Positions 1,331 to 14,066 of a stretch of DNA of 21,606 nucleotides are shown piece by piece. The number at the start of each line of letters is the position of its first letter. Positions within the stretch are counted from its first letter, which is position 1. The DNA comes from a virus. The notes under the pieces were generated by a model, which was given only the letters and a program-made list of their open reading frames with translations, did no database searches and was not told the origin of the DNA. The translations under genes were made by a program, and so were the position numbers. The DNA is taken from IMG/VR virus record IMGVR_UViG_3300045922_000910, positions 1 to 21,606 of that record. One strand, given 5' to 3'.

Positions 1331-1403
1331 TAAGCCTTCGGAGGGAAATCGCGAACGGGAAACCTAGTAATTGATGCGCCTGTCTTGAAGGCTTTATTTT
1401 TTG
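1331..1403 (+). ncRNA. Possible small RNA, antisense to the portal-gpG leader, ending in hairpin and T-run
   Basis: About 6 nt below the TATATTTG box lies AAGCCTTC (1332-1339). Its exact inverse, GAAGGCTT, is at 1387-1394 and is followed by TATTTTTT. A transcript from about 1331 could form an 8-bp closing stem round a 47-nt loop and end at the T-run. It would be antisense to the intergenic part of the minus-strand mRNA and to the last codons of portal. The stem is short and the loop long, so it is not a classic intrinsic terminator. This is a hypothesis from sequence only. Confidence 0.25.
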
Positions 1404-3973
1404 AGTAGGACTCCTTTTCTGATTTCAGATATTTTTTGCTCAAGCACGGGATACCAAGTTGCGATTTCCCCTTCGGTCACAACCACCGCGTAGGTGCCCT
1501 CATTGTAGTTTTTCAAGTATAGGGTTTTAGGTTTGATATCTCTATCAAACCACACTTCATCTGGCTGTGCCAGTATCTGGTTCACCAGTGGAGCCATCGC
1601 CCAGCGGTTTTCGGCGGGCTTGGCGTTGTCGAAGTGGTCTATCAAATGTCGGCGTTCGGCCTTTATCCAGGTCTGCTGGTAGCTGGGGAAGTAGAGGTCT
1701 TGGCTGTTGCGCCCCTGCGCCACGGCCTGCACCGCCCACCACTGGCGGAACGCGTCCTTGCTGTTGTTGCCCAGTGCGGGCTTGGGCAGGCTACTGCGGT
1801 CTAGCTGCGCCCAGTCGTCCAGGCCATACTTGCGCCAGCCCGTCCTCCCTATGTCATAATTCTGGAGTACGCGGGTGCGGGCAGCGTTGAAGATCTGGTT
1901 CTCCTGCCCAAAGTTGAAGCGGAAGTCGGGCTTCACGGCCTGGTTCACCAGCGCGGAGTCTAGCTTAATATCTTCCCGCCCTGGCAGGGCGGCCACCTGA
2001 ATCACCTCGCAGCGGCAGTTCCAGCCATTGGGGGGGTAGATGGTACTCCACACGGGGTCGTCTGCACGTGCCGTGAGTCCATTGAGGGCGGCATGTTCAC
2101 TGCGGGTGCGGTCGTCCAGCACGGCCCGGTACTGGAGGTCAAACAAGTCCTTGTCTGCCTGCTGGCGGAACCAGTTGGCGGCGTTCTGGCTGGCGGCTAT
2201 GGTGTGGTTATACTCCGCCTGTAGCCAGTTCCTGCGCTGCACCTCGAAGCCTGCGGCCTCTACCCGGGCTTTGAAGTCGGCGAAGTCGCGGCTTTGCCCT
2301 GCCAGTGCCTTCAGCTCCAGTGCCTGCTCATAGGTGCTGGCCGCGCTGAAGTAGTAGATGTTGGCATGGAAGGCCGCGATTCGCTGATTATCTGGGCTGT
2401 CATAGTCCGGCTCCACATTGTAGCCACGTTCAAAGCCCTGTTGCAGCGTCTGGGCATAGTACAGGAAAAAGTCAGCGGGTATATCTAGTGCCTTGTCCTG
2501 CCACAGCCTATCCATCAGGGCCTGCCACTTGTCTGCAAAAGCGCCTTCATCTGGCAGCGCGGCCATCAGGTGGTGGCCACAGCAGGGGTGCCCCATCGCG
2601 CCTAAGGCGGACACAGCCCCCAGCCCCTCCCCGCTAGGGGAGGGGGGCTGCTTTCCCGGCGCTGCCCGTAGCCCTCCGTGGTGGTGCCCCCCGCCCAGCT
2701 CCTCTCCGCCAGCGGCGGAAGGGGGCGTATGCGCCGCAAAGGCTGCGCCCTGTTGCTTGATCCCCTTGATCTTGGTGCCATAGGTCTGCTCTAGGTACTG
2801 CGCATCCAGCTCAAAGCCCATGTCTGCGATGGTCTTGTCTATCTGTATCTGCGCCTGTAGGTCTACGGTGTCGGCAAATTGGGTGTAGATGAACTCGTAG
2901 CCATCCAGGTCATAGCCCAGGGCTTGCAAGCGCCACCAGAGGTGCCAGTTCACAAAGTCCTGTATATACCGCAGGTCTGCCCGCAGGTAGTCATCCGCCA
3001 GGCGCTCATGCACCTGGCTTTGGCTGAGGGAGGCGCCCTCGTCTGTGAGCATGGTGACGCCAAGGATGAGCTTGGAGATGCGCTTTTGGCGGAGGGTGAT
3101 GTTTTCGAGGAACACCTTACTGGCATCCGTGGCCTCGCTTTCCATGATGCTGACCTCTGTGCCCTCGGGGAAGCGTGCCCAGCTGGCGTTTCGGAACTGC
3201 TCCAGAAACTGGTCTATGCGCGCCAGCTCCTTGCTGTCGCGCTCGCTGGTGGTGGCGTGGATGAGGGGCACGCCAAAGAGGGCGGTGTACTCGTCCCAGG
3301 CCTCGGTAGCGGCGCGCATCCACACGATTTCGGGTAGGGCTTTTTCGAGCAGCCCGGCGTCTGCCTGCTCGCCAATGGGGATGGCCCACACATCCCAGGG
3401 GGGCTTGGTGTAGTCTATGCCCTGTTGGTCGCCCGGTGTGCGCAGGAGCAGGTGTTTTTGGGGCAACACGTGCTGGCGGGGCAGCGGGCGCAGCTCGGCT
3501 ATCTCGCCGTCCTCGTCGAGCCCGGTAATCTCCAGCAGGGTGTAGCCATAGAGGCGGGCATCCAGCGCGGCCTGCACCAGTTGGTAGAACCAGGGCGTGT
3601 TGAACAGGCGGGTGCGCTCTTCGTCCACCTCTGCGGTATCGCGCTTGCGCACCACGAAGGCCTCGCCCAGCACGCGGATGCGGCGGGTGTTGCACACGCT
3701 GGCCAGGTGGGCATCCAGCATGATGTTGGCATAGAGGTTCTGGAGCAGGTCGTTGCGGGGTCTGTCGGGGTCGCGAAACAGGCGCAGGGCGCGTTTGAAG
3801 GCGGTCAGCTCCGCACTGGCCCAGGCTTCGTTCCGCAGGCGGATGCTGCGCATCATGCTGTCGGGCGGCCGTTGCTTTGGGGGCATGGCCGCCGCTTGTG
3901 GGGCGGGTGTTTGCGCCTGAGGTGTTCGCCCCCCGTTCTGGGGACGTAGTAGGGACAGCAGGAAATCTCTCAT
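1394..3973 (-). CDS. Portal (DUF935, Mu gp29-like) fused to gpF head-morphogenesis protein with C-terminal PBECR-type nuclease-like domain
   Basis: The ORF has 859 aa. Residues about 40-410 look like a DUF935 portal: LARIDQFLEQFRNASWARFPEG and the helical part after it (about 290-350), then YEFIYTQF. The portal is the dodecameric DNA gate of the capsid. Residues about 411-470 are low-complexity Gly/Pro/His linker encoded by dispersed repeats. Residues about 475-660 are Mu gpF-like, with DDRTRSEHAALNG (620-632) and NGWNCRCEV (649-657). Residues about 740-859 match the layout of the phage-encoded Barnase/EndoU/ColicinE5/RelE-like (PBECR) toxin domains often found at the C-terminus of gpF proteins: RHLIDHF, PDEVWFD, TLYLKNYN, VVV and a final TWYPV...IRKG. 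Portal and gpF are separate genes in Mu (29 and 30). The fusion point coincides with the repeat insertion. Portal and gpF calls are firm; the nuclease domain is a good guess. Confidence 0.87.
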   Translation of the reverse strand: MRDFLLSLLRPQNGGRTPQAQTPAPQAAAMPPKQRPPDSMMRSIRLRNEAWASAELTAFKRALRLFRDPDRPRNDLLQNLYANIMLDAHLASVCNTRRIRVLGEAFVVRKRDTAEVDEERTRLFNTPWFYQLVQAALDARLYGYTLLEITGLDEDGEIAELRPLPRQHVLPQKHLLLRTPGDQQGIDYTKPPWDVWAIPIGEQADAGLLEKALPEIVWMRAATEAWDEYTALFGVPLIHATTSERDSKELARIDQFLEQFRNASWARFPEGTEVSIMESEATDASKVFLENITLRQKRISKLILGVTMLTDEGASLSQSQVHERLADDYLRADLRYIQDFVNWHLWWRLQALGYDLDGYEFIYTQFADTVDLQAQIQIDKTIADMGFELDAQYLEQTYGTKIKGIKQQGAAFAAHTPPSAAGGEELGGGHHHGGLRAAPGKQPPSPSGEGLGAVSALGAMGHPCCGHHLMAALPDEGAFADKWQALMDRLWQDKALDIPADFFLYYAQTLQQGFERGYNVEPDYDSPDNQRIAAFHANIYYFSAASTYEQALELKALAGQSRDFADFKARVEAAGFEVQRRNWLQAEYNHTIAASQNAANWFRQQADKDLFDLQYRAVLDDRTRSEHAALNGLTARADDPVWSTIYPPNGWNCRCEVIQVAALPGREDIKLDSALVNQAVKPDFRFNFGQENQIFNAARTRVLQNYDIGRTGWRKYGLDDWAQLDRSSLPKPALGNNSKDAFRQWWAVQAVAQGRNSQDLYFPSYQQTWIKAERRHLIDHFDNAKPAENRWAMAPLVNQILAQPDEVWFDRDIKPKTLYLKNYNEGTYAVVVTEGEIATWYPVLEQKISEIRKGVLLKK
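2590..2735. repeat. GC-rich dispersed repeat block inside the portal-gpF fusion
   Basis: Bases 2590-2634 are the same as 16017-16061 except for one mismatch (45 bp, same plus-strand orientation). The second copy is intergenic, which shows this linker is repeat DNA and not protein-derived sequence. The hairpin core is CCCCTCCCCGC-TAGGGGAGGGG. A second unit (CTCTCCGCCAGCGGCGGAAGGGG) lies at about 2701-2725. On the minus strand the block codes for the linker between the portal and gpF domains. Confidence 0.85.
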
Positions 3974-7765: not shown

Positions 7766-8116
7766 ATGAAAGAGAATATTATCCGAGACAAGTCTTTTGC
7801 GTTTGCCGTTCGGGTGGTCAACTTGTACAAGCACCTGACGACAGAACAGAAAGAGTATGTGATGAGCAAGCAGGTTTTGCGTAGCGGAACAGCCATAGGA
7901 GCAATGGTGCGCGAGAGCCAACATGCGGAGAGCCGTGCAGACTTTGTCCATAAGCTGGCCATTGCACAGAAGGAAGCAAATGAGACGGCATACTGGTTGG
8001 AGTTGCTACAGGCCTCAGCATACTTGGCCGACCTAGCATTTGAATCGCTGACGGCAGACTGCACGGAGCTGCAAAAGCTGCTGGCCAGCATACTGATTAG
8101 CAGCAAGCAGAAATAG
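7766..8116 (+). CDS. Four-helix-bundle protein (TIGR02436 / S23-type)
   Basis: The protein has 116 aa. It contains the TIGR02436 signature: VLRSGTAIGAMVRESQHAES (about 38-57), then FVHKLAIAQKEANETAYWLELL (about 60-81). Four amphipathic helices are visible. Relatives occur in 23S rRNA intervening sequences and, as Avd, in diversity-generating retroelements; the stand-alone form is very common in Bacteroidota and its role is unknown. The gene is on the opposite strand to its neighbours. It is visibly poorer in G+C than the surrounding phage genes and is flanked by 32-bp imperfect inverted repeats (7718-7750, 8133-8164). I read the whole (about 7716-8164, 450 bp) as a small inserted element. No reverse transcriptase or rRNA is present in the window, so an Avd role is unlikely. 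Confidence 0.88.
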   Translation: MKENIIRDKSFAFAVRVVNLYKHLTTEQKEYVMSKQVLRSGTAIGAMVRESQHAESRADFVHKLAIAQKEANETAYWLELLQASAYLADLAFESLTADCTELQKLLASILISSKQK

Positions 8117-12430: not shown

Positions 12431-12985
12431 ATGAGTAGCCGACGCACCATATACCTCATAGCCGGGCACGATCTGCAACGCGACCTGGGCGCAGTGGCCT
12501 ACGATGGCACGCGCGAGGCGGTGCTGACGGCTGAGTTGCGCGACCTGGTGGCACAGCAGCTGAATAAGTGTGCGCGGTGTGGCGGCAGCACGGAGACCGA
12601 CAACGATAGTCTGGATCTGGCCCGCACCATTCAGGCCATCAATGGGCAGGCCAGGCCTACGGACTTTGTGCTGGATATCCACTTCAACCACAACCACCCC
12701 ACCGCCACAGGCACAGAGGTGTTCCACTTTGTGGGCACCAGTGCCCTGAACATAGCCCGCGCCCGCACGCTGAGCAAGGCGGTGGCCGGGGCGCTGGGCC
12801 TTCCTGACCGCGGCGCAAAGCCCGACACCCAAACCGCAGTGGGTAGCCTGGGCATCCTGCGGTTCACGCCCTGCCCGGCGCTGCTGCTGGAGGTGTGCTT
12901 CCTAAACGCGGGCGACCTGACGCGCTACCGTGCCCGGAAGCTCGCGGTGGCCACCGCCATATCCGATTTTTTGAAGAACCTATAA
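12431..12985 (+). CDS. N-acetylmuramoyl-L-alanine amidase (Amidase_3), endolysin
   Basis: The protein is 184 aa from the ATG at 12431, 8 bp after the capsid stop. An open frame extends upstream to 12242 inside the capsid gene, but that part is the capsid gene in another frame. Amidase_3 residues are visible: H13 in AGHD, E29 in TREAVL, H84 in LDIHFNHNH and catalytic E154 in LLLEVCFLN. It cuts the amide bond between muramic acid and stem peptide. No signal peptide is seen, so release needs the holin encoded next. A lysis gene this close after capsid is unlike most Mu-like phages. Confidence 0.88.
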   Translation: MSSRRTIYLIAGHDLQRDLGAVAYDGTREAVLTAELRDLVAQQLNKCARCGGSTETDNDSLDLARTIQAINGQARPTDFVLDIHFNHNHPTATGTEVFHFVGTSALNIARARTLSKAVAGALGLPDRGAKPDTQTAVGSLGILRFTPCPALLLEVCFLNAGDLTRYRARKLAVATAISDFLKNL

Positions 12986-12992
12986 ACGCGCC

Positions 12993-14066
12993 ATGCACGC
13001 CCTTGTATCCGAACTCTTGAACGAACTGCGCATCCTGCTGGGCATGAACCTGCGCACTCCCTGGTACGCCCTGTGTGCCATGCTGGGACTGACCACCGCC
13101 GGGGTGCTGGAGTTTACGGACACGTACCTGTGGAGCCCGCCCATCACGCTGCTGCTGGTGTTCCTGACCATCATGGCCGATAGTGTCACGGGCATGCTCT
13201 ATGCGTACCGCCAGAAGCGATGGGAGTCACGCAAGGCGTTCCGGGGGCTGTTCAAAGCAGTGGCCTACCTGGGCCTGCTGATACTGGCCCACAACTATGG
13301 CCGTGCGGAGCCCTCGCTCAGCTGGCTGCCCACAGGCATACTGGTGCCCATGGTGCTGTTCCTGGTGCTCAGCCTGGTCAAGAACCTGAGCCTGCTGGGC
13401 TGGCTACCGCCTAAGCTGGCAGCCATGCTCTATGAGCGGATAGATGCGTATAAGAATCCGGCGAGTGATGCGCCTGAACAGAAGCCTCACCCCCAGCCCC
13501 TCTCCAAAGGAGAGGGGGGCAAGCAGCGGGGGGGTGAGGTAACTATACTGCTATTGCTGCTATGTGCGGGGCTGCTGTTGAGCAGCTGTAGCACAGAGCG
13601 GGCCTGCACACGCAAATACCCCTGTGTACCCACCACAGTGGAGCGCGTGGTGGCGGTGCGCGACACGACGATACTGACCCCAGCGGCAGAAGTGCGCACC
13701 GTGCTGCTGCCGTGGGCTGGCGCGCCGGTGCCTGATTATCATGTGGGGAAACCCGGCGAGCCACCTGCACCCTCTATCCATGAGGGGCAGGCTCGTCCGG
13801 GGGCCTTGCAGATCGTGACCGATACGACAGGGCAGGCCGCGCTGTCCTGGCACTACGATACCCAAGGCCGCCTGCACATACAATGTAAGTGCAACGCCAT
13901 ACCGCAGACGATAGCGGGCGCGATACGCCGCGAAACGGAGACGCGCACGGTGGTGCAGACCGAACGGGTCTATGGCTTCTGGTGGTGGAGCGGTGTGGTG
14001 TGGTGGAGTAGCCTGTTTCTGGTTGTGGTGATTAACCTGATTTTAAGACGATTTAAACCCCTATAA
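12993..14066 (+). CDS. Holin fused to u-spanin-like lipoprotein (two-part lysis protein)
   Basis: The ORF has 357 aa. Residues 1-155 look like a phage holin (PF05105-type): hydrophobic segments at about 23-42, 50-71 and 87-102, and again at 113-135, with an ESRKAFRGLFKAVAYLGLL stretch. Residues about 165-181 (PHPQPLSKGEGGKQRGG) are repeat-derived. From about 183 a classic lipoprotein signal follows: TILLLLLCAGLLLSSC with Cys199 as the lipid site (lipobox L-S-S-C). The mature part is 159 aa, periplasmic-looking, and ends in a membrane segment (about 333-351, VVWWSSLFLVVVINLI) with a basic tail (LRRFKPL). OM lipoprotein plus C-terminal membrane anchor is the layout of u-spanins (phage T1 gp11). 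No good separate start is visible before the signal. Holin is well supported; the spanin is strong by topology only. Processing of an internal lipoprotein signal is inference. Confidence 0.75.
   Translation: MHALVSELLNELRILLGMNLRTPWYALCAMLGLTTAGVLEFTDTYLWSPPITLLLVFLTIMADSVTGMLYAYRQKRWESRKAFRGLFKAVAYLGLLILAHNYGRAEPSLSWLPTGILVPMVLFLVLSLVKNLSLLGWLPPKLAAMLYERIDAYKNPASDAPEQKPHPQPLSKGEGGKQRGGEVTILLLLLCAGLLLSSCSTERACTRKYPCVPTTVERVVAVRDTTILTPAAEVRTVLLPWAGAPVPDYHVGKPGEPPAPSIHEGQARPGALQIVTDTTGQAALSWHYDTQGRLHIQCKCNAIPQTIAGAIRRETETRTVVQTERVYGFWWWSGVVWWSSLFLVVVINLILRRFKPL
13485..13539. repeat. GC-rich repeat between holin and u-spanin parts
   Basis: CCTCACCCCC at the left and GGGGGTGAGG at the right form arms round the hairpin AGCCCCTCTCC-AAA-GGAGAGGGG. 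It is read in frame as PHPQPLSKGEGG, a peptide often seen in Bacteroidota proteins where this repeat has jumped in. The unit is about 55 bp. It sits exactly at the border between the two functional parts. Confidence 0.8.

Follow-up and report, generated by a model that had tools for sequence, protein, structure and literature searches.

A holin/u-spanin fusion in Mu-like phage DNA, most likely derived from overlapping genes by the insertion of a palindromic repeat

The window, i.e., the whole 21.6-kb IMG/VR fragment analyzed here, carries at positions 12993–14066 (+ strand) a single open frame of 357 codons without any interruption, in which a holin is followed by an internal lipoprotein signal and a u-spanin part. 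Judged from sequence comparison, this fused ORF is real, common to two phages (the same frame is present in the viral contig L001 at 419–1513), derived and made through a palindromic repeat. The explanation which we prefer, at a probability of about 0.58, is a derived in-frame fusion caused by the insertion of a repeat of net 3n+2 bases, whereby an internal cut by signal peptidase II (LspA) at Cys199 would free the holin and the u-spanin. Formulated as a lysis polyprotein, with one start giving a holin and an LspA-cut outer-membrane u-spanin in 1:1 proportion and with its birth from a repeat in a two-frame overlap, it has about an even chance. The fusion is what is new here, while the lysis parts themselves are of known kinds; the cleavage and the lysis function are predicted.

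The window has a Mu-like phage gene set, comprising a Mu-type portal joined to MuF, a terminase, a ClpP-type protease, a DUF2586 sheath and a tape measure. The terminase has relatives in transposable phages of Bacteroidota (among them Flavobacterium phage fF4, Winogradskyella phage Peternella_1, Porphyromonas phages and Bacteroides phage p00) and in prophages of many Bacteroidota genomes. The lysis cassette opens with an endolysin gene at 12434–12985 (+) coding for an N-acetylmuramoyl-L-alanine amidase (Amidase_3, PF01520, E 1.2e-16; PHROG 435 endolysin), as an earlier, sequence-only reading of this DNA had it, and the fused ORF begins seven bases downstream. Two further features of the neighborhood were observed. 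The portal and MuF form one 859-aa ORF (1397–3973, − strand) with two repeat copies at the junction (2590–2724) and a PBECR2 nuclease domain at its C-terminus (E 3.4e-8); in several relatives portal and MuF are separate genes, and in L010 the fused ORF contains another linker. A gene for a 23S rRNA intervening-sequence (four-helix) protein at 7766–8116 (+; PF05635, E 1.9e-26) adjoins the terminase gene, which is on the opposite strand, and simple 'GAATGGAGAATG' repeats are located near it.

The holin part (12993–13457, +; residues 1–155) has four predicted membrane helices, corresponding to the hydrophobic stretches 24–42, 51–69, 82–100 and 111–129 in the hydropathy plot. Residues 52–152 matched Phage_holin_4_1 (PF05105) with 46 bits against a cut-off of 22.2 (E 6.5e-12), and the same part matched PHROG 199 'holin', which bears out the earlier assignment of the first 155 residues. 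It was 42–46% identical to the separate holins of L183 and L184, two loci that the holin profile detected in two Bacteroidota genomes. By the positive-inside rule, both the basic loop 73–88 and the basic C-terminal tail of the holin part are probably cytoplasmic. AlphaFold2 modeling of the ORF on two sequences gave a mean pLDDT of 40, with predicted helices that fit the topology, including a long C-terminal helix.

The lipoprotein signal has its core at residues 183–198 (13539–13586, +), the hydrophobic stretch being 183–201 with a mean hydropathy of 2.19, and carries the lipobox L-S-S-C with Cys199 as the predicted lipid site; it lies where the sequence-only reading had placed it, and the lipobox is conserved in L001. 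While a u-spanin signal is normally N-terminal, this one is internal and stands behind the holin, and therefore the ORF was filed as a fusion containing a u-spanin part and not as an ordinary u-spanin. The mature part from Cys199 (13587–14063, +; residues 199–357) comprises 159 residues and ends in one transmembrane helix at 333–351 (13989–14045, +; placed by hydropathy and a low-confidence model), which is followed by the basic tail RRFKPL. Cys199 is followed by Ser in the window and by Thr in L001; that this residue is not Asp agrees with outer-membrane sorting of the predicted lipoprotein, the sorting rule on this residue having been established in other Gram-negative bacteria.

In 216 loci, a survey of all ORFs that combine a lipobox with one C-terminal helix yielded 55 unique u-spanin-like proteins with a median mature length of 150, and many of their genes adjoin amidase or holin genes. 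The lipobox cysteine was located at residue 15–53 (in one protein at 88) in all of them except the window type and L001. Full-length alignment scores of the window mature part with the separate proteins of L191, L138, L183 and L184 were reached by none of 500 shuffles each, and after removal of the last 35 residues by 0, 0, 8 and 1 of 500 shuffles, respectively. A broad u-spanin profile did not discriminate, the window part giving E 2.6e-4 as against 2.1e-4 for an anchor-keeping shuffle, and the scores of L183 and L184 with this profile are circular, since both were in it. The 'u-spanin' identity of the C-terminal part, which had been proposed from its topology, is well supported at the sequence level, because separate lipoproteins from Bacteroidota lysis loci are homologous to it and share the same topology. 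A second u-spanin-like ORF was not found in the 21.6-kb window. The mature part contains four cysteines, all of them retained in L001; at least one further mature-part cysteine was also present in 45 of the 55 u-spanin-like proteins of these Bacteroidota loci, while no periplasmic cysteine occurred in any of 58 earlier u-spanins (PMC6139136). In hankyphage-type loci (L019:8292–8867, L020:123–689 and L016:9410–9967, all on the − strand) the u-spanin-like gene is either unannotated or annotated with a late start, and it covers, in a different frame, the greater part of the 3' half of the gene upstream, which codes for a one-helix coiled-coil protein.

The border between the two parts is, as noticed earlier, a copy of a dispersed repeat: a 55-bp palindromic element at 13485–13539, translated in frame as a linker (about residues 165–182), with perfect 10-nt arms at 13485–13494 and 13530–13539 and with runs of six and seven G. 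The RNA hairpin predicted at 13478–13546 has a folding energy of −42 kcal/mol (z −5.4), while in the L001 copy the 3' arm is lost and the stability is gone (z −0.7). The hairpin lies inside the coding sequence, between the two lysis parts, and might set the amount of the second part that is made. Related copies are mostly intergenic, lying near 684, 16051 and 20140 in the window and also on the L001 contig, and two are inside the portal-MuF ORF. With inverted arms at its ends and several dispersed, mostly imperfect copies, the repeat has these features of the MITE/REP type. In the genomes holding L183 and L184, scattered copies of the exact junction repeat were not found.

In L183 and L184, amidase, holin and u-spanin are three genes, and in the larger region of the latter locus (L209) they are preceded by the protease and capsid genes, arranged as in the window. 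The u-spanin start in both precedes the holin stop, in the +1 frame of the holin (overlaps of 29 and 8 nt, respectively), and in L183 the u-spanin ATG falls within those holin codons that specify Asp-Ala. The window and L001 both have these Asp-Ala codons together with the +1 ATG (at 13468 and 891, respectively), behind which RLNR is encoded, as is typical of a lipoprotein n-region. The window ATG, with the place and frame of the L183 start, is probably a relict u-spanin start (13468–13542, +): its frame begins with MRLNRS, enters the repeat, which starts 17 bases after the start of ATG13468, and stops at TAA 13540–13542; in L001 the ATG-started frame is out of phase. Among trial removals of 50–62 bases from the repeat start, only 50, 53, 56, 59 and 62 bases rejoined the ATG and u-spanin frames in both phages, and a 3n+2 removal at the repeat restored a textbook lipoprotein signal in the window as well as in L001. 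A single event, a net insertion of 3n+2 bases, thus accounts for the lost u-spanin start as well as for the connection to the holin frame. Most likely, the ancestral u-spanin gene had its start, in the +1 frame, within the 3' end of the holin gene, and the palindromic repeat landed in this overlap just behind the first u-spanin codons, severing the u-spanin from its own start codon and bringing the holin frame into that of the u-spanin. A repeat-free, empty-site sequence, from which the exact insert length and any target duplication could be read, was not found. The sequence-only reading had been correct on the holin, the topology and the border repeat, but it missed this derived origin and the old u-spanin start, which is still visible. 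Of the pair of observations which, according to that reading, would together speak against a fusion, separate genes were found in relatives (L183 and L184), while the window has neither a stop nor a frameshift and L001 keeps the fused frame.

The window phage and L001 share the single frame with 92% identity in the holin and 78% over the whole ORF; every gap in their alignment is a whole codon, also that located between repeat and hydrophobic core, and both the LSSC lipobox and the C-terminal anchor are intact in the two sequences. The mature u-spanin part had a dN/dS of 0.27. The dS values were 1.04 for the amidase, 1.28 for the mature u-spanin and 1.20 for the sheath, but 0.13 for the holin from residue 23 on, the near-identical block (window 12993–13520 vs L001:419–945) consisting of the holin and the first part of the repeat. 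Low dS in this block and high dS on both sides indicate that it was recently exchanged, with the right edge in the repeat, and therefore the purifying selection on the u-spanin may in large part be older than the fusion. In simulated neutral drift over dS 0.13, both copies stayed free of stops with P about 0.12, so that selection on the fused state is suggested but unproven. L001 has no usable separate u-spanin start: over 44 codons, the sole in-frame candidate is a TTG located five codons ahead of the cysteine. With no start for a separate signal peptide there, conventional synthesis must begin at the holin.

The preferred explanation is thus supported by the holin domain, the lipobox, the internal signal, the anchor and the homology of the mature part; by the frame of L001, the relatives with separate genes, the relict ATG, the signal restored by 3n+2 removal and the dN/dS of 0.27; and by the lack of a usable u-spanin start in L001, together with a survey of viral lytic proteins according to which Bacteroidetes phages use unimolecular spanins exclusively (PMC12596118). 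Against it count the exchanged block with its dS of 0.13, by which selection perhaps acted before the fusion, and the P of about 0.12 for stop-free drift. These last values are also what gives some weight to the possible, but unlikely, case that the repeat put the u-spanin out of action and that the frame is open by chance, as an insertion would leave it in about one third of cases. The fused block is young enough for this, and, the window record being a fragment, lysis might proceed by holin and amidase or with another spanin encoded beyond the 21.6 kb. However, a silenced gene does not fit well with the same frame in L001, indels of whole codons, a lipobox and anchor intact in both phages and a dN/dS of 0.27, nor does the window offer a second u-spanin-like ORF as a replacement. 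Slightly less probable still is a separate synthesis of the u-spanin, whether or not the fused chain is made: ribosomes starting at ATG13468 might slip by −1 on the G-rich repeat, or there might be internal initiation at TTG or reinitiation. The retention of this ATG with its n-region codons in both phages, the six- and seven-G runs with a strong hairpin and an in-frame TTG 11 codons before Cys199 in the window would all suit it, but L001 lacks both the seven-G run and the stable hairpin, its TTG is too close to the cysteine for a signal, and the retained ATG is explicable by the recent block exchange.

A chain that stays uncut, with the core as a fifth holin-side helix of a six-helix membrane protein whose periplasmic domain has a non-spanin role, is improbable: the stretch 183–201 is hydrophobic enough to serve as an anchor, but the LSSC lipobox is fully retained in L001 and the homologous separate proteins carry it at the N-terminus, which places the cysteine under a family-wide constraint. 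Least credible of all is an assembly or sequencing error joining two separate genes, for which the G runs located exactly at the border might speak. Such a slip is unlikely because L001 has the same single frame despite a different and less G-rich junction; besides, neither phage has this ATG in the u-spanin frame, and from ATG13468 the window frame leads to a stop. A simple sequencing error and a missed stop were both rejected on account of the identical frame in L001.

If the fused chain is made and processed as preferred above, its cytoplasmic holin C-terminus would let the hydrophobic core 183–198 enter the membrane in the orientation of an ordinary signal sequence, for which the repeat would supply the basic n-region. 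Lgt would then lipidate Cys199 and LspA would cut before it, freeing the holin with a tail, while the lipoprotein would move to the outer membrane and its C-terminal helix would stay in the inner membrane. After the amidase has cleared the wall, the spanin would fuse both membranes. In an uncut chain, both ends of the periplasmic part would be fixed in the inner membrane, so that it could probably not reach the outer membrane. In such a system, holin timing and outer-membrane disruption would be tied in one chain, the host lipoprotein pathway would be the step separating two lysis proteins, and Lgt and LspA would have to accept a signal located inside a multi-pass protein. A case of LspA cutting at such a signal was not found in the literature searched. 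The cytochrome b/c1 precursor of Bradyrhizobium is an example of a membrane and an exported protein being cut from one bacterial chain by signal peptidase.

The fusion seems to be rare. About 53 Phage_holin_4_1 places were found in roughly 1,130 sampled Bacteroidota genomes (two loci were unparsed, and the holin of L183/L199 was read by eye, the script having picked the u-spanin), and no internal lipobox was present in the holin ORFs parsed from them. Neither these places nor the 55 u-spanin-like ORFs included another holin/u-spanin fusion besides the window and L001. Searches of viral contigs for close kin with the holin, u-spanin, full ORF and amidase as queries returned only L001 and L003/L010, the sequence of the latter ending within the amidase, while among named phages there was no match to the full fused ORF or to the L183 holin. 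A holin-spanin single chain was likewise absent from the literature searched, of which the coverage is incomplete, in line with the sequence-only reading that knew of none.

The window ORF can be compared with several known systems. Its residues 1–155 cover nearly the whole Phage_holin_4_1 model (PF05105, PHROG 199), but in contrast to the other holin ORFs parsed it has a lipoprotein part attached. With the u-spanin prototype, gp11 of phage T1 (PMC6139136), it shares the lipobox, a periplasmic part of about 150 residues, a single C-terminal membrane helix with a basic tail and the location in a lysis cassette, while the four mature-part cysteines set it apart from the 58 earlier u-spanins of the same study. 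The separate u-spanin-like genes of Bacteroidota Mu-like loci (L183, L184, L191 and L138) have a homologous mature part and the same topology, and in L183 and L184 the lysis neighbors are also identical in kind and order; in contrast to the window, these genes have their own start codon, overlap the upstream gene in another frame and have a repeat-free junction. Palindromic repeats in frame within genes are known from Rickettsia (PMC10969869), and the window repeat resembles them in being dispersed, palindromic and translated in frame inside a protein, although it is shorter (about 55 bp vs about 150 bp) and joins two once-separate overlapping genes. It thereby provides a clear path from overlapping genes to a fusion by way of a small repeat, and the relict start codon can still be read.
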